Assembly (NCBI RefSeq): GCF_002532075.1
Contig: NZ_LYXE01000119.1
Location: forward strand, 1-38,870
Source of the DNA: Candidatus Chloroploca asiatica
Lineage (GTDB): Bacteria; Chloroflexota; Chloroflexia; Chloroflexales; Chloroflexaceae
Length of the DNA stretch: 38,870 nucleotides
Direction: 5' to 3'
The translations under genes were made by a program, and so were the position numbers. Shown here piece after piece: positions 19,418 through 38,311 of this stretch. The notes below the pieces were generated by a model. The model saw nothing but the letters and a program-made list of their open reading frames with translations. It did not search any database and was not told where the DNA came from. Numbering within the stretch: the stretch's first letter is position 1; every line of letters begins with the position of its first letter.

Positions 19418-22400
19418 ATGATTCGCAAGACGTGCGCATCACTCGCGGATGGCGTTCGGTCACTCGGTGCAAGTCTGTTTCCGCGCCCCGCGCCAGGCCC
19501 TCTAGCTGAGCCGACCTTCGCCCCCCTGCTCGGCGACCTGCTGAGCGCCGAGCAACTGGACGTGCTTGCGCTCACTCTCGCCAACGACCAAGCTGATGTT
19601 ACTGTGCTCCCGCGCGGCGGCAACATCCTGCGCAGTGCGCTCGATCATGATGAGCGGCAGATCGCGGAGGCGCATCGGAGCCTCGGCGAGGACATCCGGT
19701 TGAGCGTGCCGATCAGCCCGGCCGCCGAGTGGCTGATCGATAATGCCTATCTTGTCAATGAACAGATCCGCACGATCCGCCACGATCTGCCACAGGGCTA
19801 CTACCGCCAACTGCCGAAGCTACGACGCGGCCCATTCGCCGATCTGCCCCGCGTCTATGGCATTGCGCTAGAGCTGATCGGCCACACCGATGGTCGGGTG
19901 GATGCCGCCGTACTGCTGCGCTTCCTCAGCGCCTACCAGTCAATCACCCCGCTCCAGATCGGTGAGCTATGGGCCGTGGCGATCATGCTGCGGATCGGAT
20001 TGGTCAAGAACCTCAGCCGACTATCGGCCCAGGTACTGCAGGTGCGTGCGCTCCGCCACGAGGCCGACACCTGGGCTGATCAGTTGCTTGGTGCGTCAGA
20101 CGAGACGATGGGCGCGGATGTGCTGCGTGCGCTGACCCACCGTCACCCGGCCCTGCCGATCACCCTCGCCGCCCAGTTGCTGCGCCGCCTGCGTGCCCAC
20201 GAGGGCGAGCACGACATCGGTCGGGTGGTAACCTGGCTCGAGACCCAGCCGGTCACGCCGCACACAACGATCGAATCGCTCATCCATGAGGAGCACCAGC
20301 GCCAGGCTGCGAACCAGGTCTCGGTCGGCAACACCATCAGCAGCATGCGCGCCCTGGGCGCGATCGACTGGCCAGACTGGTTTGCGAAGGTGAGCCAGAT
20401 CGAGCATCTGCTGTGTCGTGACCCGGCGGGGGCCTATGCGCGCAGCACCAGCGCGACCCGCGACCGCTACCGCCACGCGGTCGAGGATCTGGCCCGCGGG
20501 GCGCGCATGAGCGAGGTCGAGGTCGCACGCCGCGCGGTCATCCACGCCGACGCGGCAGTCGGCACCGACGCACGCCAGCGCCACGTCGGCTACTATCTGG
20601 TGGGCGCAGGGCGTCCGACGTTTGCGGCCCAACTTGGCTACCGTCCGTCACCCCTAGAGCGCGCCCGCAATGCGGCGATGGCGCATCCGACGGCGTGCTA
20701 CCTGGGGGCCGTCGGCGCGACCACGGCCGCAATTGTGGCCACCGGGCTGCGACTGGCACGGTGCGGCTATGCCATAGGGGGGAAGCATCGGCAAGGGATG
20801 GGCGCTGGCCAGCACCCATCCCTTGCCGATGCTCCCCCCCTACTATCCATCGCCCTGGCGCTCATTCCGGCCAGTGCTCTGGCGGGCGAACTGGTCAACC
20901 GCGCCGTGACGACGATGTTGCCACCGCGCGTGTTGCCGCGTCTCGATCTGTCGGCGGGCATCCCCGCTGAGTTGACGACCGTGGTGGTGATGCCGACGCT
21001 GCTGCTGACCCCAGACAGTGTGGGCCGCCAACTCGACACCCTGGAGGTAATCGCCCTGGCCAACCAGGATCCGAACCTGCACTTTGCCCTGCTCACCGAC
21101 TTCGCCGACGCGCCCGAGGAGAACATGCCCGAGGACGCCTCGCTGCTCGATGCCGCAGCCGAGCGCATGCGCCAACTCGCCGAGCGCCACGGCGCGGATC
21201 GCTTCCTGCTGCTGCATCGCCACCGTATCTGGAATGAGCGACAGGGCCGCTGGATGGGCTGGGAGCGCAAACGCGGCAAGCTGGAAGAATTTAACAAGCT
21301 GCTGGTCGGCGCGGGCGAAACATCCTATGGCGTGATGGTCGGCGATCAGCGCGTATTGGAGCGTGTGCGCTATGTAATCACCCTTGACGCCGACACACAG
21401 ATGCCGCGTGACGTCGGCCAGGCCCTGATCGGCACGCTGGCCCACCCGCTCAACCAGGCCCGGTTCGATCCGCTGACCGGGCGGGTGGCTGAGGGCTACG
21501 GCATCCTCCAGCCGCGGGTCGGCATCGACCTGCCCAGTGCCACGGCCAGTCGCTTCGCCCGCGTCTTCGCTGGAAATATTGGCGTTGACCCCTATACAAC
21601 CGCCGTCTCGGATGCCTACATGGATCTGTTTGGCGAGGGTATCTTCGCCGGCAAGGGCATCTACGACCCGGCGGTTCTACGCACCGCTCTGCACGGGCGC
21701 TTCCCCGAGAATGCCCTGCTTAGCCACGACCTGATCGAGGGCCTCTACGCTCGCGTCGGGTTGCTCTCTGATGTGGAGGTGGTGGACAGCTATCCGACCA
21801 CCTACGCGGCCTGGGCGGCACGCCAGCACCGCTGGGTACGCGGCGACTGGCAGATCGCGGCCTGGCTGCTGCCTCGCACACCGTCGGCCGAAGGCTGGCG
21901 GGCGAACAGCCTGCCAGTGATCGCGCGCTATAAGATCTTGGACAACCTGCGACGCAGCCTCACCCCAGCCGCAACGGTCGCCCTGCTCGTCGCCGGCTGG
22001 CGCTGGCTGCCCGGCCGCCCGGCGGTCTGGACATGCCTGGCCCTGGCGCCCCTAGCTGCGCCACTGGCGTTCGACCTGCTAGCCGCCGCCCGCGCCGCCG
22101 TGCTGGAACCGGGCAATATGGGTGCGCTGCGGGCCAGAGTGCGCGAGTTGCAACTCAGCGCCCTGCGCTTGGCGCTCAACGTCGCCTTTCTACCCGACCA
22201 GACCTTGCTCAACCTTGATGCGATCGTCCGCACCCTGACGCGCACGCTGATCACACGGCGCAACCTGCTCGAGTGGGAGACCGCCGCGCAGTCGCAGGGC
22301 CGGCTCCAGCGCTCCCATATGCCGGTGCTGCGCCGAGGCGCGCCCATGCTCATCGTCGGCGCGGCCCTGGTGACTGCCCCAGGCCGCCGCCACGCCGAGG

Positions 22401-25400
22401 CCCTCTCTGCGCTGCCGATACTTGCTGACTGGCTCGCTGCGCCAGCCCTCGCCGCCTGGCTCGACCAACCACACATTCATGCGGTACTCCCGATCAGCGC
22501 CGAGGATCGGCTCCTGTTACGGCGGCTGGCCCGCGCCACCTGGGCCTTCTTTGAGCAGTTCGTCCGCGCCGAGGCCAACTTCCTGGCCCCCGATAACTTC
22601 CAGGAGACACCGCGCCCCCTGATCGCCGACCGCACCTCGCCCACAAACATCGGGCTCCAGCTGCTGGCCGACCTGGCCGCCTACGACTTTGGCTATATCG
22701 GCATGCTGGAACTGACCGAGCGCACCGAGCGGGTATTCGCGACACTGGCGCTACTAGAGCGCTGCGAGGGCCACTTGCTGAACTGGTACGACACCCGTAC
22801 ACTGAACCCGCTGCCACCGGCCTACGTCTCAATGGTGGACAGCGGTAATTTCGTGGCGGCCCTGCTCACCCTGCGCCAGGGTTACCTGGCCCTGCGCGAT
22901 ACACCCCTGATCGGCCCGCAAGCCCTCGTCGGGATCGAGGACTCCCTCGCGCTGATGGGACAGAAGCTTGGCGACCATGGGCCAGCGCGCAAGACGGTTG
23001 CCGCCCTATCCGAGCTACTCCGCGATACGCCTACTACAGTGGGCAACTACCGCGATCTGCTCGGTGAGGTTCTGGAGTGGGCAGAGGATCTAGACACCGT
23101 CGGGCCGGTCGCCGTGTGGGGTGCGCGCATTGGAAGCCAGGCACGTAGCCTGCTGGAAGATGTTGACAGCCTCGTGCCCGCATTGGATCACCGTGAGCGT
23201 CCGCCGACCCTCGGCGAACTGGCTGATAGCGGCGTCCCCACTGCTGCCGCCCTGCTTGCCCGCCACGCCTGGGTCGCCCGCGCCTGCGCCGATCAAGTTG
23301 AGGCGATGCAGTTCGACTTCCTCTATGACAGCCAGCGCCACCTGTTCTCGATCGGCTATCGCGTCTTTGAGGGCCAGCGCGACAGCTCCTTCTATGACCT
23401 GCTGGCCTCCGAGGCTCGCCTGGGCAGCTTTCTGGCCATCGCCAGAGGTGAGGTACCGCAAGAGCACTGGTTCCGCATGGGGCGTGGCCTAACGGCGGTG
23501 GGCTTGGGCGCTGCGCTGCTCTCGTGGAGCGGTACGATGTTTGAGTACCTGATGCCGCTGCTGCTGATGCGCCGCTACCCCGAAACGTTGCTCGACGCCA
23601 CCTACACCGCCGCCGTCGCCCGCCAGATCGCGTATGGCAAAGAGCGTGGCGTGCCATGGGGCATCTCGGAGTCGGCCTACAATGCGCGCGACCTGGCGAT
23701 GAACTATCAGTACCACGCCTTCGGTGTGCCTGGCCTGGGGCTAAAGAGCGGTCTCGACGACGATCTCGTGATCGCACCCTACGCGACGATGCTGGCCCTG
23801 TCGGTGCGCCCGGCCGAGGCCCTGGAGAACCTGCGGGTGTTGGTCGCCGATGGCATGTTTGGCAGCTACGGACTATACGAGGCCGTCGACTACACGCCCA
23901 GCCGCGTGCCGCCCGGCCAGCGCCACGCGATTGTGCGCTCGTTTATGGCCCACCACCAAGGCATGAGCCTGCTCGCCCTGGATAACGTGCTCCACGCCGA
24001 GGTGATGCAGCGGCGCTTCCACGCCGAGCCGCTCGTGCAGTCAGCCGAGACCCTGCTTCAGGAACGCGTGCCCCAGACGCGCCCGGCCCAGACGGCGCGG
24101 ACGGCCGTCCGTGAACCCCAGATCGCCTTTTTCGCCCCGCCAGCACCGCGCCAGTTCAATACGCCCTTCACCAGCATGCCCTACAGCCACCTGCTCTCCA
24201 ACGGTCGCTACCGCCTGATGCTCACCACTGCTGGCGGTGGCAGCAGCAGCTTCGACGACTTGGCGATCACGCGCTGGCGCTCCGACGTGAGTCGCGACGA
24301 CTGGGGCAGTTTCATCTACATCCGCGATGCCCGCAGTGGCACAGTCTGGTCGACAACCTACCAGCCGACCCGTCACAAGTCGCTGAGCTACCAGGTAACC
24401 TACGGCCTGGATCGGGCCGAGTTTCGTCAGCGCGTGGCCGGGATCGACACGCGCATGGAGGTCGTCGTCTCGCCTGAGGAGCATGCCGAGCTTCGTCGGG
24501 TTACGCTCACGAACCTCACAAGTGCGCCACGCGAGCTAGAATTGACGAGCTATAGCGAGGTGGTGCTGGCCCCGCCCGCCGCCGACGAGGCGCACCCCGC
24601 CTTCGCCAACCTCTTCGTCGAGACCGAATTTGTGCCCAAGCACGACGTACTGCTGGCCGTACGTCGGCCGCGTGCGTCCGGTGCCGCTCGCACCTGGGCC
24701 ATCCACAGCGTGAACGTACGCGGCCACGCCCTCGGTGCCACCCAGCACGAGAGCGACCGGGCCGCCTTCGTCGGGCGCGGGCGCGACATGGCCGACCCGC
24801 AGGCGCTCCACGTGCCCCTCGGCGGGCACACCGGCGCCGTCCTTGACCCGGTGCTGAGCCTCCGTCGGCGCGTGCGGATCGCGCCTGGGGCCAGCGCTCA
24901 GATCACCTTCGTCACCGGCGTGGCCGAGGGCAGGATCGAAGCGCTGGCCCTGGCCGCTCGTCTGCGCGACCCAGCGGCTGCCGAGCGCGCCTTCGAACTG
25001 GCCTGGACCCAGAGCCAAGTGGAGTTACACGATCTGAACATCGGTGCCGACCAGGCCCACCGCTTCCAACGCCTCGCCAGCGCCGCGCTCTTCCTCAATG
25101 TACGGCGGCGAGCCTCGCCTGAGACCCTCACAGCGAACACCAGAGGCCAACCCAACTTGTGGGCCTACGGCATCTCCGGCGACTTCCCTCTGGTGCTGGT
25201 GCGCGTCGGTGTAGACGACGAGTTGACCCTGGTGGCAGAACTGCTACGCGCCCACGAGTACTGGCGGCTCAAACGGCTGCAGGTAGATTTGGTCATCCTC
25301 AACGAAGACAGCGGCGGCTACGCCCAGGGGCGCCAGGATCATCTGCTCAGCCTCGTGCGCAGCAGCCGCGCCGGGGCGCTGCTCAACCAGCGTGGTGGCA

Positions 25401-28057
25401 TCTTTCTCCTGCGTGGCGATCTCGTGCCCGCAGCCGACCAGGTGCTACTCGAGACGGTCGCCTGCGCCCTGCTATCCACGCGCCGGGGCGATTTGGCCCA
25501 GCACCTGCGCCGTCGCGAGTCCGATGCTGGCCAGGCCCCCGCCGTGCCAAGCATCTCTACCGCACACGACGCGCTGCTCCCGCCCATCGACCTGATCCAG
25601 CCCTCGCCCTACGGCGGCTTCACGCCCGACGGGCGTGAGTATGTGATCGACCTGGTTCCCGGTGGTTCCACGCCCGCACCTTGGATAAACGTGGTCGCCA
25701 ACCCCGGCTTCGGCTTCATCATCAGCGAGAGCGGCGGCGGCTACACCTGGGCCGGCAATAGTCGCGAGAACCGGCTCACCCCGTGGGCGAACGACCCCGT
25801 GCGCGACCCCTTGGGCGAGGCGCTCTACCTGCGCGATGAGACCAGCGGCACGATCTGGTCGCCCACGCCGCGTCCTGTGGGCTTGGGCCATGTGCGTGTC
25901 CGCCACGGCTTTGGCTACACCAGTTTCGCACGCCAACACGGCGACATCGCCAGCGATCTGACGATCGCTGTGCCCAGCGATGACCCGGTGAAGATCTTCC
26001 GCCTGCGCCTGTGCAACCACGGCGACCAGCCCGCACGGCTCACAGCGACGCTCTACGTCGAGTGGGTGCTGGGCGTCTTCCGCGCCCAGATGGCCCCCTA
26101 CATTGTTACTGCCTATGACGAGGAGGGCGCCGCGCTGCTGGCCCACAATGCCTACAACGTCGAGTTTGGTGAGCGGGTGGCGTTTCTCGCCGCGAGCGAG
26201 CATGTGCTGAGCTACACCGGCGACCGTACCGAGTTCATCGGTCGCAACGGCGACCTCAGTCGACCGACAGGCATGGCCGCACGGGCCCTCTCATGTCGCG
26301 CCGGCGCGGGGGGCGACCCATGCGGTGCCATTCGCTGCGCGCTCGATCTGGCCCCCGGCGAGGAGCGCGAGCTCGTCTTTTTGCTTGGTCAGGGCGCGGA
26401 CACCAATGATGCGCGGCGGCTCATCGCGCGCTACCGTACCACGACTGCGGCGGCCCGCGCCCAACAGGCTGCCGTCGCGGGCTGGCGCACGCTGCTCGGC
26501 GCGACTCAGGTACAGACACCCGACCCGGCCCTCGACCTGCTGCTGAACGGCTGGCTGCTCTACCAGACCTTGGCCTGCCGAGTCTGGGCGCGCTCGGCCT
26601 TTTACCAGTCGGGCGGGGCCTACGGCTTCCGCGACCAACTCCAGGATGTGATGGCCCTGACTCAGGCCGCGCCTGAGGTGGCCCGTGCCCAAATCCTGCG
26701 CGCCGCCGCACGCCAGTTTGGCGAGGGCGACGTCCAGCACTGGTGGCATCCGCCGAGCGGGCGCGGCGTCCGCACCGGTTTCTCCGACGACTATCTCTGG
26801 CTGCCCTATGTCGCCTCCTTCTACTGCGAGGTGACAGGCGACCTGGCGCTGCTGGATGCGCCAACGCCCTACCTCGAGGGCCGACTCAGAGAGCCGGGCG
26901 AGGCCGAATATTATGGCTTGCCCACGGTCTCGGCGCGTCAGGCCAGCCTGTACGAGCACTGCGCACGAGCAATCGACTATGGACTGGGGCGGATGGGTGC
27001 CCATGGCCTGCCGCTGATGGGTGCTGGCGATTGGAACGACGGCATGAATCTGGTGGGGGCCGACGGCACCGGCGAGAGCGTCTGGGTTGGCTGGTTCCTG
27101 ATCGCGGTGCTGCACCCCTTCGCTGATCTGGCCGCAGCCCGTGGCGACACCGAGCGCGCAGCGCACTACCGGGCCGAGGCCGAACGGCTACGGGTAGCGA
27201 TCGAGACCAGTGCCTGGGACGGCAACTGGTATCTGCGCGCCTTCTACGATGACGGCACGCCGCTCGGCGCACAGGCCAGCGCCGAGTGCCAGATCGACTC
27301 GCTGACACAGTCCTGGGCGGTGATCGCAGGTGTCGGCGATCCGACCCGCGCACGGGCGGGTATGGAAGCGGTGGACAACCTGCTTGTTGACCGCGAAGTT
27401 GGGCTGATCCGGCTCTTCACTCCGGCCTTCGACCAGGGCGACCATAACCCAGGCTATATCAAAGGCTATCTGCCAGGAGTGCGCGAGAACGGCGGCCAGT
27501 ATACCCACGCCGCAATTTGGACGATTTGGGCATGGGCGCTGCTGGGCGAGGGCGAGCGAGTGGCCGAACTGCTGCGCCTAATCAGCCCGGTGCGCCACGC
27601 CGCCGAACATAGCGCACGCTACATGGTGGAGCCCTACAGCATCGCCGCCGATGTCTACACCGCCGAGGGCCACGCCGGACGCGGCGGCTGGACCTGGTAC
27701 ACCGGATCGGCAGGCTGGTTCTACCGTCTGGGCGTCGAACAACTGCTCGGCCTGCGCCGCCGTGGCGATACCCTTAGCATCACCCCCTGCCTGCCGCCAG
27801 AGTGGCCCGGCTACACCGCGAACTACCGAGTCGGCACGGCGACCTACCAGATCACGGTCGAACGCGGAACCGATGCACTGGTGACGCTTGATGGCGTGGA
27901 GGTGTATGACGGCCAGATCCCGCTGCGTGACCATCCTGGGACGCATGAGGTACGCGTGGTGATCGCCGGGGTGGAACCCTCACACTGTCAGGGATACTGC
28001 TCATACAAGAGTCGGAGTTTATCGGCTACCACTCTTGGCCCGCATTCGCTAGACTGA
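19418..28057 (+). CDS. ndvB: Cyclic beta-1,2-glucan synthase (NdvB/ChvB type)
   Basis: The 2879-residue protein has the length and layout of cyclic beta-1,2-glucan synthases, large inner-membrane enzymes that initiate, elongate and cyclise periplasmic glucans used in osmoadaptation. Visible parts are membrane segments near residues 425-500 and 830-900, a GT84-type transferase core with DADTQMPRD (about 655) and QHRWVRGDWQ, a glycoamylase-like region with WGISESAYNARD (about 1415) and GLKSGLDDDL, and a C-terminal GH94 phosphorylase-like domain with GAGDWNDGMN (about 2537). AAGGAGGG upstream supports the ATG at 19418. Two oddities stand out. An in-frame hairpin encodes residues about 453-475, and the last 25 or so residues are read from a regulatory repeat belonging to the next gene. 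The symbol is assigned by family, not by experiment. Confidence 0.88.
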   Translation: MIRKTCASLADGVRSLGASLFPRPAPGPLAEPTFAPLLGDLLSAEQLDVLALTLANDQADVTVLPRGGNILRSALDHDERQIAEAHRSLGEDIRLSVPISPAAEWLIDNAYLVNEQIRTIRHDLPQGYYRQLPKLRRGPFADLPRVYGIALELIGHTDGRVDAAVLLRFLSAYQSITPLQIGELWAVAIMLRIGLVKNLSRLSAQVLQVRALRHEADTWADQLLGASDETMGADVLRALTHRHPALPITLAAQLLRRLRAHEGEHDIGRVVTWLETQPVTPHTTIESLIHEEHQRQAANQVSVGNTISSMRALGAIDWPDWFAKVSQIEHLLCRDPAGAYARSTSATRDRYRHAVEDLARGARMSEVEVARRAVIHADAAVGTDARQRHVGYYLVGAGRPTFAAQLGYRPSPLERARNAAMAHPTACYLGAVGATTAAIVATGLRLARCGYAIGGKHRQGMGAGQHPSLADAPPLLSIALALIPASALAGELVNRAVTTMLPPRVLPRLDLSAGIPAELTTVVVMPTLLLTPDSVGRQLDTLEVIALANQDPNLHFALLTDFADAPEENMPEDASLLDAAAERMRQLAERHGADRFLLLHRHRIWNERQGRWMGWERKRGKLEEFNKLLVGAGETSYGVMVGDQRVLERVRYVITLDADTQMPRDVGQALIGTLAHPLNQARFDPLTGRVAEGYGILQPRVGIDLPSATASRFARVFAGNIGVDPYTTAVSDAYMDLFGEGIFAGKGIYDPAVLRTALHGRFPENALLSHDLIEGLYARVGLLSDVEVVDSYPTTYAAWAARQHRWVRGDWQIAAWLLPRTPSAEGWRANSLPVIARYKILDNLRRSLTPAATVALLVAGWRWLPGRPAVWTCLALAPLAAPLAFDLLAAARAAVLEPGNMGALRARVRELQLSALRLALNVAFLPDQTLLNLDAIVRTLTRTLITRRNLLEWETAAQSQGRLQRSHMPVLRRGAPMLIVGAALVTAPGRRHAEALSALPILADWLAAPALAAWLDQPHIHAVLPISAEDRLLLRRLARATWAFFEQFVRAEANFLAPDNFQETPRPLIADRTSPTNIGLQLLADLAAYDFGYIGMLELTERTERVFATLALLERCEGHLLNWYDTRTLNPLPPAYVSMVDSGNFVAALLTLRQGYLALRDTPLIGPQALVGIEDSLALMGQKLGDHGPARKTVAALSELLRDTPTTVGNYRDLLGEVLEWAEDLDTVGPVAVWGARIGSQARSLLEDVDSLVPALDHRERPPTLGELADSGVPTAAALLARHAWVARACADQVEAMQFDFLYDSQRHLFSIGYRVFEGQRDSSFYDLLASEARLGSFLAIARGEVPQEHWFRMGRGLTAVGLGAALLSWSGTMFEYLMPLLLMRRYPETLLDATYTAAVARQIAYGKERGVPWGISESAYNARDLAMNYQYHAFGVPGLGLKSGLDDDLVIAPYATMLALSVRPAEALENLRVLVADGMFGSYGLYEAVDYTPSRVPPGQRHAIVRSFMAHHQGMSLLALDNVLHAEVMQRRFHAEPLVQSAETLLQERVPQTRPAQTARTAVREPQIAFFAPPAPRQFNTPFTSMPYSHLLSNGRYRLMLTTAGGGSSSFDDLAITRWRSDVSRDDWGSFIYIRDARSGTVWSTTYQPTRHKSLSYQVTYGLDRAEFRQRVAGIDTRMEVVVSPEEHAELRRVTLTNLTSAPRELELTSYSEVVLAPPAADEAHPAFANLFVETEFVPKHDVLLAVRRPRASGAARTWAIHSVNVRGHALGATQHESDRAAFVGRGRDMADPQALHVPLGGHTGAVLDPVLSLRRRVRIAPGASAQITFVTGVAEGRIEALALAARLRDPAAAERAFELAWTQSQVELHDLNIGADQAHRFQRLASAALFLNVRRRASPETLTANTRGQPNLWAYGISGDFPLVLVRVGVDDELTLVAELLRAHEYWRLKRLQVDLVILNEDSGGYAQGRQDHLLSLVRSSRAGALLNQRGGIFLLRGDLVPAADQVLLETVACALLSTRRGDLAQHLRRRESDAGQAPAVPSISTAHDALLPPIDLIQPSPYGGFTPDGREYVIDLVPGGSTPAPWINVVANPGFGFIISESGGGYTWAGNSRENRLTPWANDPVRDPLGEALYLRDETSGTIWSPTPRPVGLGHVRVRHGFGYTSFARQHGDIASDLTIAVPSDDPVKIFRLRLCNHGDQPARLTATLYVEWVLGVFRAQMAPYIVTAYDEEGAALLAHNAYNVEFGERVAFLAASEHVLSYTGDRTEFIGRNGDLSRPTGMAARALSCRAGAGGDPCGAIRCALDLAPGEERELVFLLGQGADTNDARRLIARYRTTTAAARAQQAAVAGWRTLLGATQVQTPDPALDLLLNGWLLYQTLACRVWARSAFYQSGGAYGFRDQLQDVMALTQAAPEVARAQILRAAARQFGEGDVQHWWHPPSGRGVRTGFSDDYLWLPYVASFYCEVTGDLALLDAPTPYLEGRLREPGEAEYYGLPTVSARQASLYEHCARAIDYGLGRMGAHGLPLMGAGDWNDGMNLVGADGTGESVWVGWFLIAVLHPFADLAAARGDTERAAHYRAEAERLRVAIETSAWDGNWYLRAFYDDGTPLGAQASAECQIDSLTQSWAVIAGVGDPTRARAGMEAVDNLLVDREVGLIRLFTPAFDQGDHNPGYIKGYLPGVRENGGQYTHAAIWTIWAWALLGEGERVAELLRLISPVRHAAEHSARYMVEPYSIAADVYTAEGHAGRGGWTWYTGSAGWFYRLGVEQLLGLRRRGDTLSITPCLPPEWPGYTANYRVGTATYQITVERGTDALVTLDGVEVYDGQIPLRDHPGTHEVRVVIAGVEPSHCQGYCSYKSRSLSATTLGPHSLD
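20775..20842. repeat. 68-bp hairpin inside the glucan synthase gene
   Basis: Arms 20775-20802 and 20815-20842 pair over 28 bp with one mismatch. The 12-nt loop contains the palindrome CTGGCCAG. It lies in frame and encodes GGKHRQGMGAGQHPSLADAPP between two hydrophobic segments. It looks like a REP/MITE-type insertion tolerated in a loop. Confidence 0.85.
27972..28055 (+). promoter_or_regulatory. Shared operator-promoter module, copy B (YflT-like gene)
   Basis: This module aligns without gaps to copy A: CCCTCACACTGTCAGGGATACT (27977-27998), then CGGAGTTTATCGGCTACC (28013-28030), then TAGACT (28050-28055), 65 bp after the operator centre at 27985. It overlaps the 3' end of the glucan synthase frame. 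The start would be near 28062, about 104 nt before the stress gene. Confidence 0.5.
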
Positions 28058-28096
28058 AAGTATACATCTTCCTCTCCATCAATTATGTACGACGAC

Positions 28097-28143
28097 AGAA
28101 GCAAGCAGCGCGCTTCGACGAATGAGATAGAAGCAAGCAGCGC
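28097..28143. repeat. 15-bp direct repeat in the leader of the stress gene
   Basis: AGAAGCAAGCAGCGC occurs at 28097-28111 and 28129-28143, 32 bp apart, in the predicted 5' leader of the next gene. Confidence 0.7.
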
Positions 28144-28165
28144 TGTTCTACGAAGGAACACTGCA

Positions 28166-29278
28166 ATGATTCGAACGATAACCGGACTTTTCGACACCAC
28201 CGATGACGCCCACAGCGTCGCGAATGATCTGATAAACCAGGGTATCCTACGCGAGGATATCAGCATGGTGGCCCGTGACGCGAACGATGAGAGCACCCGT
28301 CAGCAAGAGGTAGGTGCAGAGCACTCCGTGGGTTCGGGCGCGGTAGGCGGCAGCGTGGTCGGCGGGGCGGTCGGCCTGCTGGTGGGGGCCGGGTTGCTCG
28401 CCATCCCTGGGATTGGCCCGGTACTAGCGATCGGCCCCCTCGCCGCCGCTATCGGCAGCATCGGTGCTACGGTGGGTTCCACCGCCCTCGGGGCCGGTGT
28501 CGGCGCGAGTGTTGGTGGCATAGCCGGCGCACTGATGGGCACCGGAGTGCCCGAAGAGTCGGCCCACATCTATGCCGAGGGCGTGCGGCGGGGCGGTGTG
28601 CTGCTGACCGTGAGTGTCGATGCAGCCATGGCCGAGCGGATCAATGTTGATGCGGTGATGCGCCGCTATGGGGTGGTAGACATCGAGGAGCGCAGCAAGC
28701 AATGGCACAAAACCGATTGGCACCCCTCACTGGCAACGGACACGAACCAGCCAGACTTCGCCCAGGGGCAGCGCAGTGCGCCACCCAACACGAACCAGCC
28801 AGACTTCGCCCAGGGGCAGCGCAGTACGCCACCCAACACGAACCAGCCAGACTTCGCCCAGGGGCAGCGCAGTACGCCACCCAACACGAACCAACCAGGC
28901 TTCGCCCAAGGGCAGCGCAGTACGCCACCCAACACGAACCAACCAGACTTCGCCCAGGGGCAGCGGGTTACGCCACTCAGCAACAACTACCCAAACGCCA
29001 CCACCCACGGTATGCACGACGCCAACGGCAACAATGATCACGACTTCCAGACCCATTATCACTCGACGGTAGCAGCAGGCGGACGGCCCTACAGTGACTA
29101 TGCCCCGGCCTATATCTTTGGCACCGACATGGCCACCGACGCGGGCATTCACGGTCACTCGTGGGATACGGTTGAGCCAGACTTGCGCCGTACCTGGAAT
29201 CTGAAATATCGGGACACATGGGACGAGTTCAAGACAGCCATACGCTACGCATGGGAGAAGGGTTCCGGACAAGGCTAG
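28166..29278 (+). CDS. YflT/GSP17M-like general stress protein with minisatellite
   Basis: With the ATG at 28166 (GAAGGA upstream) the protein has 370 residues. Residues 1-50 (TITGLFDTTDDAHSVANDL) match the heat-induced/general-stress YflT-type domain. A glycine-zipper membrane-interacting stretch follows (GGSVVGGAVGLLVGAG and further Gly-rich helices), then a hydrophilic region with five 16-residue repeats, and a C-terminal domain with YSDYAPAYIFGTDM and DEFKTAIRYAWE that often accompanies this family. It is likely a membrane-associated stress protein. The longer frame from 28085 only adds the leader repeats. Confidence 0.8.
   Translation: MIRTITGLFDTTDDAHSVANDLINQGILREDISMVARDANDESTRQQEVGAEHSVGSGAVGGSVVGGAVGLLVGAGLLAIPGIGPVLAIGPLAAAIGSIGATVGSTALGAGVGASVGGIAGALMGTGVPEESAHIYAEGVRRGGVLLTVSVDAAMAERINVDAVMRRYGVVDIEERSKQWHKTDWHPSLATDTNQPDFAQGQRSAPPNTNQPDFAQGQRSTPPNTNQPDFAQGQRSTPPNTNQPGFAQGQRSTPPNTNQPDFAQGQRVTPLSNNYPNATTHGMHDANGNNDHDFQTHYHSTVAAGGRPYSDYAPAYIFGTDMATDAGIHGHSWDTVEPDLRRTWNLKYRDTWDEFKTAIRYAWEKGSGQG
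28739..28978 (+). repeat. Five 48-bp in-frame minisatellite units
   Basis: Units start at 28739, 28787, 28835, 28883 and 28931 and encode NTNQPDFAQGQRSTPP with few changes. The unit is a multiple of three, so expansions keep the frame. Confidence 0.95.
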
Positions 29279-29553: not shown

Positions 29554-30195
29554 TTAGCGCTGACCAAACAGCCGCCAGCCACTCGGCAAGGCGACTGCGG
29601 CCAGCCCGATCTTCAGCGCAGCACCCGGGAGGAAGGGCAGGACAGCCGCAACAACGAGGGCTGAAATGCTGACACTGCCAGTCAAGAATGCCGTAGCAAC
29701 CACAAGCCATGTGAAGCCCATCACCAGGATAATTGCTTCGCCAGCGAGCATCGCAGGCAGCGCGGTGCGAATCTTGCGATCCCACCCCCGGTTCGCTAGG
29801 TAGCCGACGACCGCTGCCGCCACCGGGAAGGCAAAGAGATAGCCTGCCGTCGGGCCAAAGATGACCGGCAGCCCCGGAATGCGGCTCGGGCTCCACGCGC
29901 TCGTGCCCATCGAGAAGACCGGTAAGCCCAAGAGACCTTGACCCAGGTAGGCGAGCAGGGTCAGCGCCCCCAGACGCGGGCCGTACAGGGCACCAATCAG
30001 ATAGACGCCAAGCGTCTGACCAGTGATTGGCACGGGGGTGAAGGGCAGGTGAATGCTGATCCGCGCCAGCATTGCCATCAAGATTGTCCCGGCTACGATC
30101 AGCAATCCATCACGCACAATGGGATTGGCTAGAGACCCGCGGGCGGGGACCAGGCGGTCGGCCAGGGTTCCAACAGTCGTCACGCCAGTGGTCAT
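29554..30195 (-). CDS. bioY: BioY biotin transporter substrate-binding subunit
   Basis: The 213-residue, six-helix membrane protein has BioY hallmarks: FTPVPITGQTLGVYLIGALYG, a GPTAGYLFAFP stretch and a C-terminal PFLPGAALKIGLAA. BioY captures biotin alone or with the EcfA/EcfT energising units; none of those is in the window. The ATG at 30195 is supported by GAAGGAGC upstream, whereas a start at 30234 lacks one. It is transcribed divergently from the GAPDH-arsJ operon. No clear BirA operator was seen. Confidence 0.9.
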   Translation of the reverse strand: MTTGVTTVGTLADRLVPARGSLANPIVRDGLLIVAGTILMAMLARISIHLPFTPVPITGQTLGVYLIGALYGPRLGALTLLAYLGQGLLGLPVFSMGTSAWSPSRIPGLPVIFGPTAGYLFAFPVAAAVVGYLANRGWDRKIRTALPAMLAGEAIILVMGFTWLVVATAFLTGSVSISALVVAAVLPFLPGAALKIGLAAVALPSGWRLFGQR

Positions 30196-30235
30196 ACAGG
30201 TCGCTCCTTCATAGATCGTACGAATGATGGGCACT

Positions 30236-30348: not shown

Positions 30349-30392
30349 TCGCTCCTGGCTCGCACGTGCATCATTATATCAATCTAAACTGT

Positions 30393-30420
30393 CTTAATCT
30401 TCACTTAACAGAGCCTTAAC
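30393..30420 (+). promoter_or_regulatory. Pho-box-like triple direct repeat
   Basis: CTTAAT (30393-30398), CTTAAC (30404-30409) and CTTAAC (30415-30420) are spaced at exactly 11 bp, one DNA turn. They end 11 bp upstream of the -35. PhoP of Bacillus binds TTAACA-like hexamers with this period, and cyanobacterial Pho boxes use CTTAACC. Binding by a PhoB-type regulator here is inferred. Confidence 0.5.
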
Positions 30421-30431
30421 GCGCTATATTA

Positions 30432-30460
30432 TCGACATAAGCGGGTTGAGCTCGTATAAT
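30432..30460 (+). promoter_or_regulatory. Promoter of the GAPDH-arsJ operon
   Basis: TCGACA (30432-30437) and a perfect TATAAT (30455-30460) are 17 bp apart. The start would be near 30467, giving a leader of about 29 nt to the GTG at 30496 with AGGAG in front of it. Confidence 0.65.
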
Positions 30461-30495
30461 ATCGATGGAGTTTGTTGTAGTAGAGGAGAAGGCTT

Positions 30496-31503
30496 GTGAC
30501 GGTACGGGTTGGTATTAATGGCTTTGGGCGGATCGGGCGTCTGGCGTTGCGTGCGGCGTGGGGCTGGCCCGAGGTGCGGTTTGTCCATGTCAATGAGGTT
30601 GCAGGTGATGCGGCGGCATGTGCCCATCTCTTGATGTTTGATTCGGTGCATGGTCGCTGGGGCCGCGAGGCTTCAGGTGAGGGCACCCAGTTGCTCGTTG
30701 ATGGGCAGTCGCTTGGTTTTAGTCGCATCAAAGATCTCGCCGCAGTGCCTTGGGCCGACGCCGGGGTTGATCTGGTGATCGAGGCCACGGGCAAATTCCG
30801 CACGCCTGAACAATTGGCTCCCTATTTTGCCGCCGGGGTCAAAAAGGTGATCGTTGCTGCCCCCGTCAAGGGTGAGGCGCTCAATATTGTGATGGGCGTG
30901 AATGACCATTGGTACGATCCCGCGCTCCACCATCTGTTGACGGCTGCGTCGTGTACAACTAATTGCCTCGGGCCGGTGGTCAAGGTGATCCACGAGGGTA
31001 TTGGGATCAAGCACGGGATGATTACGACGGTGCATAGCTCAACCAATACGCAAACGGTGCATGACTCGCCGCACACCGATCTGCGCCGCGCACGAGCTTC
31101 GAGTCTGTCGCTTGTGCCAACGACCACCGGTTCGGCTACGGCGATTGGCCTGATCTTCCCCGAGTTGAATGGCAAGCTCAATGGGCAGGCGGTGCGCGTT
31201 CCGTTGCTCAATGCCTCGCTGACCGATTGTGTCTTTGAAGTCACTCGCCCGACCAGCGTCGCTGAAGTCAATGCCCTCTTGCAGTCCGCCGCGGCTGGCC
31301 CGCTCGCCGGTATTCTTGGCTATGAGACGCGCCCGCTTGTTTCGATGGATTATGTCACCGATCCCCGTTCGGCGATTGTTGATGCGGCGTGTACGATGGT
31401 GACGAATGCGACCCAAGTGAAGATCTATGCTTGGTACGATAATGAGTGGGGCTATGCCAATCGTCTGGTTGAACTGGCCCGTAAGGTGGCAGGGTTGTTA
31501 TGA
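30496..31503 (+). CDS. ArsJ-associated glyceraldehyde-3-phosphate dehydrogenase
   Basis: The 335-residue type-I GAPDH has the Rossmann start [11 protein letters not shown], the catalytic SCTTNC (Cys153) and the base-pair partner His in TTVHS (about 180), with the C-terminal [11 protein letters not shown]. It is cotranscribed with an arsJ-type transporter (ATGA overlap at 31500-31503). In such pairs GAPDH uses arsenate in place of phosphate to make unstable 1-arseno-3-phosphoglycerate, which ArsJ exports; this is established for other bacteria. The GTG start has AGGAG 7 nt upstream. A housekeeping glycolytic role cannot be excluded, but the context favours arsenate resistance. Confidence 0.88.
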
Positions 31504-32825
31504 CCACGACCAGGACGCCGCAGCCTCCAGCGCCCCTCGGTGAGACCGAGGCCCTGGCCCAGCGCCAAACAAACCTGCGCAATTATGTGCTCGTGACGTT
31601 CGCGTACTGGGCTGATACGCTTACCGACGGCGCTATTCGCATGCTGGTGCTCTTCTATTTCTACCAACTCGGCTTTACGCCCTTGCAGGTCGCCTCGCTC
31701 TTTCTCTTTTATGAGATCTTTGGCATTCTGACTAATCTTTTTGGTGGCTATCTGGGCGCACGCTTCGGACTCAAGACGACGCTCTTTCTCGGCCTTGGTA
31801 CCCAGGTGATCGCGTTGAGCCTGCTCGCGTTTGCGCCGCCGTCACTTCTGGTGGTGCCGTATGTGATGCTGGCGCAGGCGTTTTCGGGTATCGCTAAAGA
31901 TTTGACCAAGATGTCATCGAAGAGTGCGGTCAAGCTGGTCGCCGGCGAGACGCAAGGGCAACTCTATACCTGGGTGAGTGTGCTCACCGGTTCGAAGAAT
32001 GCGATCAAGGGCGTCGGTTTCTTTCTCGGGGCGTTGCTGCTCACGCTGATCGGGTTTCAGCTCGCCATGCTGGTGCTGGCCGTCCTGGTACTGACCGCGC
32101 TGGGCACCACGGCGCTCTTGATGCGCGGCGATCTCGGTACGGCCAATAAGAAGGCGAAGTTTACCCAGATGTTTTCGCATAACCGGGCCGTCAATCTGCT
32201 GGCTGCCGCCCGGATCTTCCTTTTTGGGGCGCGGGATGTCTGGTTTGTCGTTGCGCTGCCGATCTTCTTTGTGAGTGTGCTCGGCTGGGATTTCTGGCTC
32301 GCGGGTGGGTTTATGGCCGCCTGGACGATTGGCTATGGCATGGTTCAAGCTGCAACGCCCCGCCTGATCCGCCGACGCGTCGAGGGCAATCACGAGCCTG
32401 ATGGGCGCACGGCAACCATGCTTGCCTTTGCGCTGGCGTTGTTTCCGGCGGCGATTGCCCTTGCTCTGATGAATGCGTTGGCCCCAGCCTTTTCGGTCGT
32501 AACCGGGTTGATCATCTTTGGCATTGTCTTCGCCTTCAATTCAGCCGTGCATTCCTACCTTATTCTTGCGTATACTGACAGCGATAAAGTAGCCATGAAT
32601 GTCGGCTTCTATTATATGGCGAATGCGATGGGCCGCCTCGCCGGAACCGTGCTCTCCGGGTTACTCTACCAGATCGGGATGAACCTGAGCACCTATGGCG
32701 GTCTGATCATCTGTCTCTGGGCCTCGGTGGCCTTTGTGTTGCTGGCTGGCCTGATCTCGCTGCTGCTGCCCCGCCACACCGCCCCGCGCACCCGCCCGAT
32801 TGCGCTTGGCGACCTCGGTGAATAG
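31500..32825 (+). CDS. arsJ: ArsJ organoarsenical (1-arseno-3-phosphoglycerate) MFS exporter
   Basis: The 441-residue, roughly twelve-helix MFS protein carries segments typical of Ars[55 protein letters not shown] and [15 protein letters not shown]. The start codon overlaps the GAPDH stop, so expression is coupled. Function is exit of the arsenate-containing glycolytic ester, with no ArsC reduction needed. No arsR lies alongside, which makes the Pho-box-like sites the best candidate for control. Confidence 0.9.
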
Positions 32826-32879: not shown

Positions 32880-32886
32880 GAGTGCA

Positions 32887-32982
32887 AGCGGGTTGCGGCA
32901 GAAGCGGGTTGCGGCAGAAGCGGGTTGCGGCAGAAGCGGGTTGCGGCAGAAGCGGGTTGCGGCGGAGGCGGGTTGCGGCAGA
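32887..32982. repeat. Six 16-bp tandem repeats upstream of scpB
   Basis: AGCGGGTTGCGGCAGA is repeated six times, the last two with single changes, ending 31 bp before the scpB start. They are open in the scpB frame but sit before its likely start codon. Confidence 0.9.
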
Positions 32983-33013
32983 AGTTTGGTTTCTGATGAG
33001 GTCGAGGTTTACT

Positions 33014-33544: not shown

Positions 33545-33910
33545 CCCACGCTGATCTGCCGTCCCACGATCGCCCCCACCTAATAACCCACGCCTTGTCC
33601 ACACTCACCCCCCAGTTATCCACAATTTTGTTGCGAAGCATTGCTTGTCTCCCAACAGGGCTTCCATCCCATTGCAATGCTTTCGCCCGATCCAAAAAGC
33701 CATGACACCACGAAAAGTTATCCACATCGGTCGCGCATAGTTGTCAACATAGACACGTGAATCAAGCACTGGGATCGAAAGTTTCAGCCCTAGAGCACCG
33801 TGCAAAACTATAAGCAAGAATTATAGAGATCGTACGTTATGTTGCTTGAAATGGATGGGAAGATCGAGTATGATTGCCAGCAGACTAAAAACGCAACGGC
33901 GACTACTCCT

Positions 33911-33976
33911 GCTACGCTCGTAGCTTGTATGAGCAGAAGCGAAGCTACGCTCGCAGCTTGTGTGAGCAGAAGCGAA
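33911..33976. repeat. Two 33-bp direct repeats in the origin region
   Basis: The unit starts GCTACGCTCG and ends GAGCAGAAGCGAA. The second copy has two changes, and a third copy begins at 33977 and breaks off. Confidence 0.85.
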
Positions 33977-34076
33977 GCTACGTAAGGGCCAACGGCCCGC
34001 TTTCCAGGTTCATTTTGATGTGTAAGGGGCAGCGGCCCCGCTTTATCGTGAGAAGTCTGCGGGAAGGCAGTGTGTC

Positions 34077-34105
34077 TTGCCCCCTGGCTTTGTATTGTCT
34101 ATGTA
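34077..34105 (+). promoter_or_regulatory. Possible dnaA promoter
   Basis: TTGCCC (34077-34082) and TATGTA (34100-34105) are 17 bp apart. Both hexamers are weak, and the implied start would fall close to or inside the Shine-Dalgarno. Confidence 0.35.
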
Positions 34106-34121
34106 GGACAAGGAGGTGCCT

Positions 34122-36714: not shown

Positions 36715-36900
36715 TACCCCACGGCTAAAGCCGGGGGGTTCTGGTGGCAACCCGACGCGCTCTGCCCGGCTCTCCCGCTTGCGGCGGTACAGCATCCGCG
36801 CCCTCACGCGCCCTCGTGACCACTGCCCCGGCGACCCGCTCCGACCCGCCATGTGGCAGGTGGCTACCCCCAGAGGGGGCGGCGCTTGCAGGTTGGTGGT
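36715..36900 (-). ncRNA. Predicted omega-RNA of TnpB
   Basis: In IS605-type elements the TnpB guide RNA comes from the right end, overlapping the tnpB 3' end and running into flanking DNA that serves as guide. Here that would be the minus strand from about 36900 across the hairpin at 36717-36737. Limits are guessed from family knowledge, not from a measured transcript. Confidence 0.35.
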
Positions 36901-38311
36901 CTTGCGCCCAGGCGGTGAACGCCTGCACGCTGACCGGACTCGACGCCGCCGGGAGGCGCGATTCCGCACCCGAAAACGCCTGGCGGGCGCTTTCCGCGTC
37001 GAGACGCCAGATTGGGCCATCTGGCCCGCATTCGGCCTGAGCAAAGCGCGCCAGATAGGCGCTCCACACGTCCCGCTGCACCGTGATGCCACAATCACAG
37101 CAGTGGACGCGCTCGGCGAGCGGCTTGCGCGCAATCGTGCCGCAGAGACAGGTTTGCGAGAGTCGCAGCGACGTGGGCAGCACCGTCACCGACGCGCCAG
37201 CACTCACAGCCTTGCGCGTCAGGAGGGTCACAAACGTCGCCGGGGCGGCCTGCCCCACGGCCTTGCCGTAGGATTTTTGGAAACTCCGGTAGCTGTTCTT
37301 CTCGATGCGAATGGCGTCCCCGAGACGGAGGACAGCGTTGGCGAGTTGTCCGTGCAGGCTCGTGCGATGGGCAGCCTCCCGGCGCAGCGCCTCGGCCAGC
37401 TTGCCCTCGGTAGCACGCTGGTTCTGGCTCTTGCGCCACCGCTTCGGGCCCGGCCTGACGCGCCCGTCAGGGAGATAGTTGGCGGGATTGTTGGCCCGCC
37501 GCTGGCGGTCGAGCTTGCGCCGTAGACGCCGCTGCACCTGCTTTTCACCCGCGAACGGTGCCGCCAGATCTACCTGTGCGCCCCAGTCTTCCCCCGCCAG
37601 CCCGAAGGTGCGCGGGCCGGGGTCGATCCCCACCACACCGGTTCCGATGGGATGCTTCGCCTTGCGGTAGGGCGTTCCCGCACAGACAAGCTGGACGAAG
37701 AAGCGTACCCGCCCGTTCAGGACGCGCCGTATAAGCCGAACGAACTTGATGTGGGATGCCAGGGCGTGCGCGACCACCGGGTCGTCGGCGGGGATGCGGG
37801 CTGCCAGAGCAAGCGGCCCCCACCGTACCCGCCCCTCGCGCCAGCGGATACCCTGCTTGTTGGTCTTGCCCTCCACGCTGAGCAGTTGCCCCTTGCCCTT
37901 GAAGCGCGGGCGACCCCGCTTCCCAAACTGGTACTCCCGCACGGCCCCAAAGGCCCGCGTGGCAAGGGTTTGGATCGTATTTGCGTCAAGGTGCTGGCCC
38001 ACCCAACTCTGGGTAAACTGTCCCGCCCAGGCATGTAGGTCATACTCCCGCAGCCCAAACCGCTCGTCCAGTGCCCGGAACGCCGCTGCACGGGCCTTCC
38101 GCTCCTCCTGCGTGCGCCGGGGGAGCGTGCGCGCCTCCTGGTACGCTTTCGCTTGCCGCAGCAGTTCCAGCCGCTTCAGACTTTCCCCCAGCACGGCGTT
38201 ATAGACCTGGCGGGCGCAGTCCAGGCGCACACCCAGCGCCCGCTCGTCATCCCCGGAAAGGATGAGGGGCAGTTCACAGCTAAAGCTGGATGTATGCGAG
38301 CGCCGCGCCAT
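36725..38311 (-). CDS. tnpB: TnpB RNA-guided nuclease (IS605 orfB)
   Basis: The 528-residue protein retains the RuvC-like triad: Asp230 in GIDPGP, Glu337 in RIEKNSYRSF and Asp414 in QRDVWSAY. It also has a zinc ribbon (C388, C390, C404/C407) and a helix-turn N-terminal region (ARQVYNAVLG, RFKGKGQ). It is therefore probably an active omega-RNA-guided endonuclease that keeps the transposon at its donor site. An unusual tail of about 100 residues follows the catalytic region, likely because that DNA also encodes the guide RNA scaffold. The stop codon falls in the right-end hairpin. Confidence 0.9.
   Translation of the reverse strand: MARRSHTSSFSCELPLILSGDDERALGVRLDCARQVYNAVLGESLKRLELLRQAKAYQEARTLPRRTQEERKARAAAFRALDERFGLREYDLHAWAGQFTQSWVGQHLDANTIQTLATRAFGAVREYQFGKRGRPRFKGKGQLLSVEGKTNKQGIRWREGRVRWGPLALAARIPADDPVVAHALASHIKFVRLIRRVLNGRVRFFVQLVCAGTPYRKAKHPIGTGVVGIDPGPRTFGLAGEDWGAQVDLAAPFAGEKQVQRRLRRKLDRQRRANNPANYLPDGRVRPGPKRWRKSQNQRATEGKLAEALRREAAHRTSLHGQLANAVLRLGDAIRIEKNSYRSFQKSYGKAVGQAAPATFVTLLTRKAVSAGASVTVLPTSLRLSQTCLCGTIARKPLAERVHCCDCGITVQRDVWSAYLARFAQAECGPDGPIWRLDAESARQAFSGAESRLPAASSPVSVQAFTAWAQDHQPASAAPSGGSHLPHGGSERVAGAVVTRAREGADAVPPQAGEPGRARRVATRTPRL

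Follow-up and report, generated by a model that had tools for sequence, protein, structure and literature searches.

A predicted Pho box upstream of the gap-arsJ arsenate efflux operon of Candidatus Chloroploca asiatica

Which signal controls an arsenate efflux operon that has no arsR gene beside it? The question is raised by the gap-arsJ operon of the photosynthetic bacterium Candidatus Chloroploca asiatica, which lies in a 38.9-kb stretch of DNA (the window), contig C118 of a 5.84-Mb genome (G000). The congeneric genomes G001 and G002 were used for comparison.

Repeat array and promoter of gap-arsJ

The gap gene (30496..31503, plus strand, GTG start, 335 aa) encodes an ArsJ-associated glyceraldehyde-3-phosphate dehydrogenase (GAPDH), which scored 555 bits against NF033735 (ArsJ-associated G3PDH; cut-off 450). 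It is followed by arsJ (31500..32825, plus strand, 441 aa), encoding an organoarsenical efflux MFS transporter that scored 558 bits against NF033734 (ArsJ; cut-off 400). The two ORFs overlap by 4 bp and form an adjacent pair of the GAPDH-ArsJ arsenate efflux type, whose products are predicted to make and export 1-arseno-3-phosphoglycerate. Among the best 80 named loci, drawn from 468 confirmed ArsJ loci, the nearest ArsJ proteins were those of Candidatus Chloroploca mongolica M50-1 (98%) and Chloroploca sp. Khr17 (97%). The divergent neighbour is a bioY-like ORF (29554..30234, minus strand), at a position where several relatives carry arsR. A tblastn search of the whole window with the ArsR proteins of this genome and of its relatives detected no ArsR gene, in agreement with the first-pass annotation, which had reported no arsR nearby.

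Several other features of the window were recorded. Tandem GCGGGTTGCGGCAGAA units were seen by eye directly 3' of arsJ (about 32885-32985), and long-unit tandem repeats, also seen by eye, occupy 28740-28980 within the ORF at 28085-29278. A very long ORF (19418-28057) encodes 2879 aa, and a 528-aa ORF (36725-38311, minus strand) matches a Cas12f1-like/TnpB TNB domain with 27.1 bits, just over the cut-off. The intergenic region before dnaA (33545-34115), a possible replication origin, contains two TTATCCACA words (33616-33624 and 33718-33726) that are likely DnaA boxes.

Upstream of gap, the hexamers CTTAAT (30393-30398), CTTAAC (30404-30409) and CTTAAC (30415-30420) follow each other in steps of exactly 11 bp, confirming an earlier description of three CTTAAY units with this period. 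The array (30393..30420, plus strand), a predicted Pho box, ends 11 bp before a promoter, again as first described: the -35 hexamer TCGACA (30432..30437, plus strand) and the -10 hexamer TATAAT (30455..30460, plus strand) are separated by 17 bp and together match 11 of 12 consensus positions. The box and the -35 hexamer are kept among the three Chloroploca genomes, TCGACA being identical in G001 and G002; in G001 the first unit is GTTAAT and the -10 is TATACT. An alternative -10, TATTAT at 30427-30432, was rejected because it is not conserved in G001 and G002.

It is very improbable that the repeats are a functionless chance feature. In the 5.84-Mb genome the exact CTTAAY triple is found a single time and its reversed pattern not at all, and a search for YTTAAY triples with up to two mismatches gave one match in the window and none in 100 dinucleotide shuffles of it. 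The units are also kept in both congeners, while the sequence 5' of the box and of the palindrome described below has strongly diverged among the three genomes. Weak versions do arise by chance: at two mismatches the genome contains eight sites, five beyond the three described below, compared to two for the control, and we therefore regard the weaker sites as uninformative.

Distribution and spacing of the repeats

With at most one mismatch, the source genome contains three sites and no others: the gap-arsJ site in the window, C90:12223 and C65:13537. The C90 site precedes pstS-pstC-pstA-pstB, and the C65 site precedes ugpA-ugpE-ugpB. PstS (tandem type, TIGR02136) and PstC (TIGR02138) of C90 scored above their NCBIfam cut-offs; UgpA and UgpB were the best models for the C65 genes, yet below their cut-offs, and pstA was named by eye or position, without a family search. 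By the strict triple, the regulon of this genome comprises these three operons only. The anticipated recurrence of the triple at phosphate genes was thus found for pst, and also for ugp, but not for phoU: the genome has two phoU genes, and both are absent from the strict-triple sites, as is the regulator gene on C184 discussed below. The strongest PF12849 match of the genome (C169:115900) is also without a site. G001 and G002 likewise contain three sites apiece, all upstream of these same operons, with reversed control matches numbering 0 in G000, 1 in G001 and 1 in G002. Absence of the motif from the phosphate genes and from the operon of relatives, which would argue against a Pho box, was seen in neither place. 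A weight matrix gave a similar picture at gap-arsJ, whose score was never equalled by the best score in 5000 resampled upstream regions. Since the matrix was trained on 12 sites hand-picked from matches to the YTTAAY pattern, its scores depend on that pattern; the identities of the downstream genes, unlike the matrix scores, are independent of it.

The survey was extended to 41 genomes. A site was present in 18 of the 25 that belong to the family and in 4 of the 16 that belong to other families of the order. With at most one mismatch, the family genomes contained 46 places compared to 6 for the reversed pattern, the 46 including overlapping windows at one promoter in G004, G017 and G019. The 16 genomes from other families contained 7 places compared to 16 for the control, showing that the pattern is uninformative outside the family; one of the sites there, in G037, lies before a pst cluster. 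At least 16 of the 46 family sites (a raw count) immediately precede pst, ugp, PhoX, GDPD or phosphatase genes, three precede gap-arsJ, and many precede genes that have no obvious link to phosphorus, such as those in G012, G018, G019, G020 and G022. Left out of the 16 were SBP_bac_5 and SBP_bac_6 genes, an ABC-transporter gene of G007 and a ugp-like cluster of G014 behind a GntR gene.

Two side observations came from these scans. Pho-box-like triples precede SBP_bac_5 transporter genes in three genera (L051, at G000:C39:11000, minus strand; L133; L106), and these genes possibly encode a phosphorus-related peptide or organophosphate importer. An exact CTTAAC-N5-CTTAAC pair lies upstream of a gene whose product contains a sigma-70 region 2 domain (L052, at G000:C109:106282, minus strand).

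The distance from the last unit to the -10 was compared in 23 of 27 listed promoters (4 of arsJ and 19 of other genes), with pst and ugp of G001 and G002 excluded. Outside arsJ the -10 recurs at one helical phase to the motif: 11 of the 19 non-arsJ promoters have a -10-like hexamer at 10, 21 or 32 bp past the last unit, and every other phase accounts for at most 4. The distance is 32 bp for the pst and ugp promoters of the source genome and for gap-arsJ of G014, a genome of another genus. For gap-arsJ of the three Chloroploca genomes it is 34 bp, which departs from the usual phase by 2 bp. The pst and ugp promoters of the source genome have an extra in-phase unit (CTTAAC, ATTAAT), with 10 bp between its end and the -10. 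Such a unit is missing from all four gap-arsJ promoters, which carry a -35-like hexamer (TCGACA or TGGACA) instead.

Collectively, we consider it likely from sequence that the CTTAAY array is a Pho box, the site for this lineage's PhoB/PhoP/SphR-type regulator, which would activate gap-arsJ together with pst and ugp. At the sequence level the first-pass proposal of Pho-box-like repeats is supported by the same motif before pst and ugp in all three genomes of the genus. The motif also fits the cyanobacterial P-box YTTAAYYW-N3 as given in PMC9846622 and the units of CTTAACCT plus a 3-bp linker as given in PMC1906773.

Of the 102 matches to the PhoB model TIGR02154 in the source genome, none scored above the cut-off (best 233.8 compared to 296.2 bits). 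The C184 regulator gene sits before a kinase gene whose best models are PnpS and PhoR, both below cut-off; the pair is a candidate PhoB/PhoR-type system only. Regulators on C126 and C199 are further PhoB/PhoP candidates. The YycF, MtrA, RpaB and PhoB models score the regulators of this genome much alike, and WalR/YycF-, MtrA- and RpaB-like regulators use similar repeats. Another OmpR-family regulator with 11-bp direct repeats, such as one of these, might therefore bind the array, and the link to phosphate would then be indirect. We regard this as quite improbable, since the sites were found without gene information and nonetheless precede pst, ugp, PhoX, GDPD and phosphatase genes.

arsR linkage, palindromes and related loci

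ArsJ was found above cut-off in 32 of 400 genomes drawn from the phylum, these 32 lying within the same order. Among the 39 gap-arsJ loci of the order, at least 25 have arsR within 4 kb, a count that is a lower bound at short contigs (upstream sequence of 154 bp in G021 and 258 bp in G025), and 8 have a PstS homologue near. The gap-arsJ operon of Vibrio cholerae is described as being under ArsR (PMC9601151). A palindrome, TCAAY-N4-RTTGA, occurs with at most one mismatch in 14 of 26 upstream regions of relatives, compared to 234 of 4000 windows taken at random from these loci and 76 of 4000 upstream regions after shuffling. It often stands directly after the -10, several of these relatives have a divergent arsR, and it is probably an ArsR operator.

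These findings suggest a rival explanation, in which the main control of the Chloroploca operon is by arsenic, through an ArsR encoded elsewhere and acting on two palindromes that flank the box and the promoter, the Pho box being a minor modulator. The first palindrome, ATCAATCTAAACTGTC (30378..30393, no strand assigned), is a degenerate form that overlaps the first base of the box and is nearly identical across the three Chloroploca genomes. The second, ATCGATGGAGTTTGTT (30461..30476, no strand assigned), is a very degenerate copy directly after the -10, with ATCAAT in G001 and G002, and clear copies occupy that place in relatives. Both are putative operators, and both have at least two mismatches, a level with a high chance rate. 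An arsR lies 1.7 kb from gap in G001; there is no linked arsR in G000, where the counterpart of the G001 gene is on another contig, and none within 4 kb in G002. The source genome has eight ArsR-family (HTH_5) matches, all outside the window, including an arsR on C49 that precedes arsD-arsA and one on C79 that precedes an arsM-like gene (neighbours named by eye, without a family search). The C49 arsR has a better palindrome, TTCAATCGTGGTTGAA, upstream of itself. Weighing the linkage and the palindromes of relatives against the degenerate copies in Chloroploca, we consider predominant control by arsenic unlikely.

The palindrome was also searched for throughout the source genome. At two mismatches it occurs at eight distinct places (on both strands each), compared to 3 and 3 for the control. 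None of the viewed places lies before an arsR gene, and the palindrome was set aside as an own-genome operator; only one place, between pstS and pstC, was suggestive. This palindrome, TATCAATTCAAACTGATG (L049:5948-5965; G000:C90:9947-9964), hardly varies among the three Chloroploca genomes. It is similar to the ArsR-type palindrome found at gap-arsJ promoters, and it could give pstCAB a second point of control. The Chloroploca PstS itself (L049:6061-8070) is a tandem protein with two PBP_like_2 domains, 669 aa in G000, and the G002 frame is 378 aa.

The Pho box is present in 4 of the 39 gap-arsJ loci of the order (G000, G001, G002 and, with two units, G014) and absent in 35. The best two-unit scores within 1.5 kb were 21.7 and 21.8 bits in the four carriers compared to 13.1 bits in the other 35 loci. 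A separate scan scored 36 upstream regions, L015 and L170 being without a usable gap start and three others shorter than 240 bp. In G014 the two-unit box lies at the same place before gap-arsJ and is combined with a clear palindrome, a divergent arsR and pstS downstream of arsJ. Most simply, a Pho box would have been added to ArsR-type promoters in two lineages, with loss of the linked arsR in Chloroploca. We propose, as an evenly balanced possibility, that Chloroploca moved arsenate export from a linked ArsR to the Pho regulon by adding a box to an ancestral ArsR-type core promoter, giving an anticipatory defence that would rise with high-affinity uptake of phosphate, and hence of arsenate, ahead of arsenic sensing. 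The Chloroploca promoter has the look of an ArsR-type core promoter, as found in relatives, to which a Pho box has been joined on the upstream side, and some control by arsenic may therefore persist.

Loci from beyond the order were also compared. Among these best 80 of the 468 ArsJ loci, the triple stands before gap in the two Chloroploca loci; the upstream slices were informative for 74 of the 80, excluding L211, L220 and L221 (GAPDH truncated by the start of the locus) and L226, L245 and L269 (less than 50 bp), and a separate scan took in all 80 loci whole. A few weaker matches (16 to 18.5 bits), found in L229, L247 and L262, are at other positions of the respective loci. PstS-like genes occur in 16 of these best 80 of 468 loci, suggesting that the phosphate link of gap-arsJ clusters recurs without a Pho box.

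Two cyanobacterial arrangements were recorded separately. In Anabaena sp. FACHB-1237, six in-phase YTTAAY-like units lie about 150 bp before PstS-gap-arsJ (L257:3548-3614); the reversed sequence of these AT-rich loci scores similarly, and this array was set aside as a Pho box and kept as a lead only. In L246, L248, L255 and L270, the sequence upstream of the PstS-like gene of a cyanobacterial PstS-gap-arsJ cluster carries two ATCAATTTTTTTTGAT/GAA palindromes with a spacing of about 53 bp.

A proposed phosphate-starvation model and known systems

The motif that gap-arsJ shares with phosphate-uptake genes suggests that the arsenic defence is probably switched on in phosphate starvation. In the model that we propose, a phosphorylated PhoB-type regulator would bind the tandem units upon phosphate starvation and switch on gap-arsJ from its TCGACA-17-TATAAT promoter, along with pstSCAB and ugpAEB. 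With high-affinity phosphate uptake switched on, arsenate could enter with phosphate. The extra GAPDH would then convert arsenate to 1-arseno-3-phosphoglycerate for export by ArsJ, a pathway described in other bacteria (PMC9601151). If this is true, GAPDH-ArsJ detoxification lies inside the phosphate-starvation response, which would explain a defence timed with the risk of arsenate entry. The locus would also exemplify rewiring between a repressor responding to arsenic and an activator responding to phosphate, which could be traced species by species. For Chloroflexaceae-type bacteria, the analysis provides a concrete Pho box and promoter rule, with 11-bp units and a -10 at 10, 21 or 32 bp, and a short list of targets.

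The closest parallel to the box is cyanobacterial. The SphR/PhoB Pho box is described there as a tandem array of three or more CTTAACCT-like units, joined by 3-bp linkers, that precedes pst and phosphatase genes (PMC1906773, PMC9846622). It has the same 11-bp period as the Chloroploca box, and both stand before pst; the Chloroploca box belongs to another phylum and precedes a gap-arsJ pair without sphX. In Anabaena PCC 7120, a Pho box was predicted upstream of sphX-gap3 (PMC1906773). By our own reading, the site given there contains TCAAC-N4-ATTGA and may therefore be an ArsR-type site. In Nodularia spumigena CCY9414, which has sphX-gap-arsJ, phosphorus limitation raised GAPDH in two of three table columns (log2 1.57 and 2.41) and arsJ in one (log2 1.20) (PMC9846622). 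The effect is modest, arsR is adjacent, and the authors of that study found no conserved P-box; in Chloroploca, in contrast, the box is present.

Other systems couple arsenic and phosphate with different genes. PhoB of Halomonas sp. HAL1 is reported to bind a Pho box before the arsenite oxidase genes aioBA and to act at low phosphate (PMC4563254); this is a proteobacterium and the process is arsenite oxidation, whereas the Chloroploca operon is for arsenate export. Arsenic and phosphate genes are linked in arsenic islands with pst/pho genes, and Agrobacterium pstS1 and phoU are under ArsR, as cited in the same source (PMC3834237). Those islands are mostly of the aio type, unlike gap-arsJ, and GAPDH does not figure in the text of PMC3834237. 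In the V. cholerae var operon, arsR-varG-varH-arsJ, GAPDH and ArsJ give arsenate resistance through 1-arseno-3-phosphoglycerate (PMC9601151). That operon is arsenate-inducible and ArsR-repressed, and the term PhoB does not appear in the main text of the report. Among the literature matches listed, in which subscription journals are mostly outside coverage, there was neither a Pho box before gap-arsJ outside cyanobacteria nor a described Pho box for Chloroflexota. Since coupling of arsenic and phosphate is already known, these comparisons suggest that the novelty of the Chloroploca operon is that of a variant with an unusually clean cis-element.
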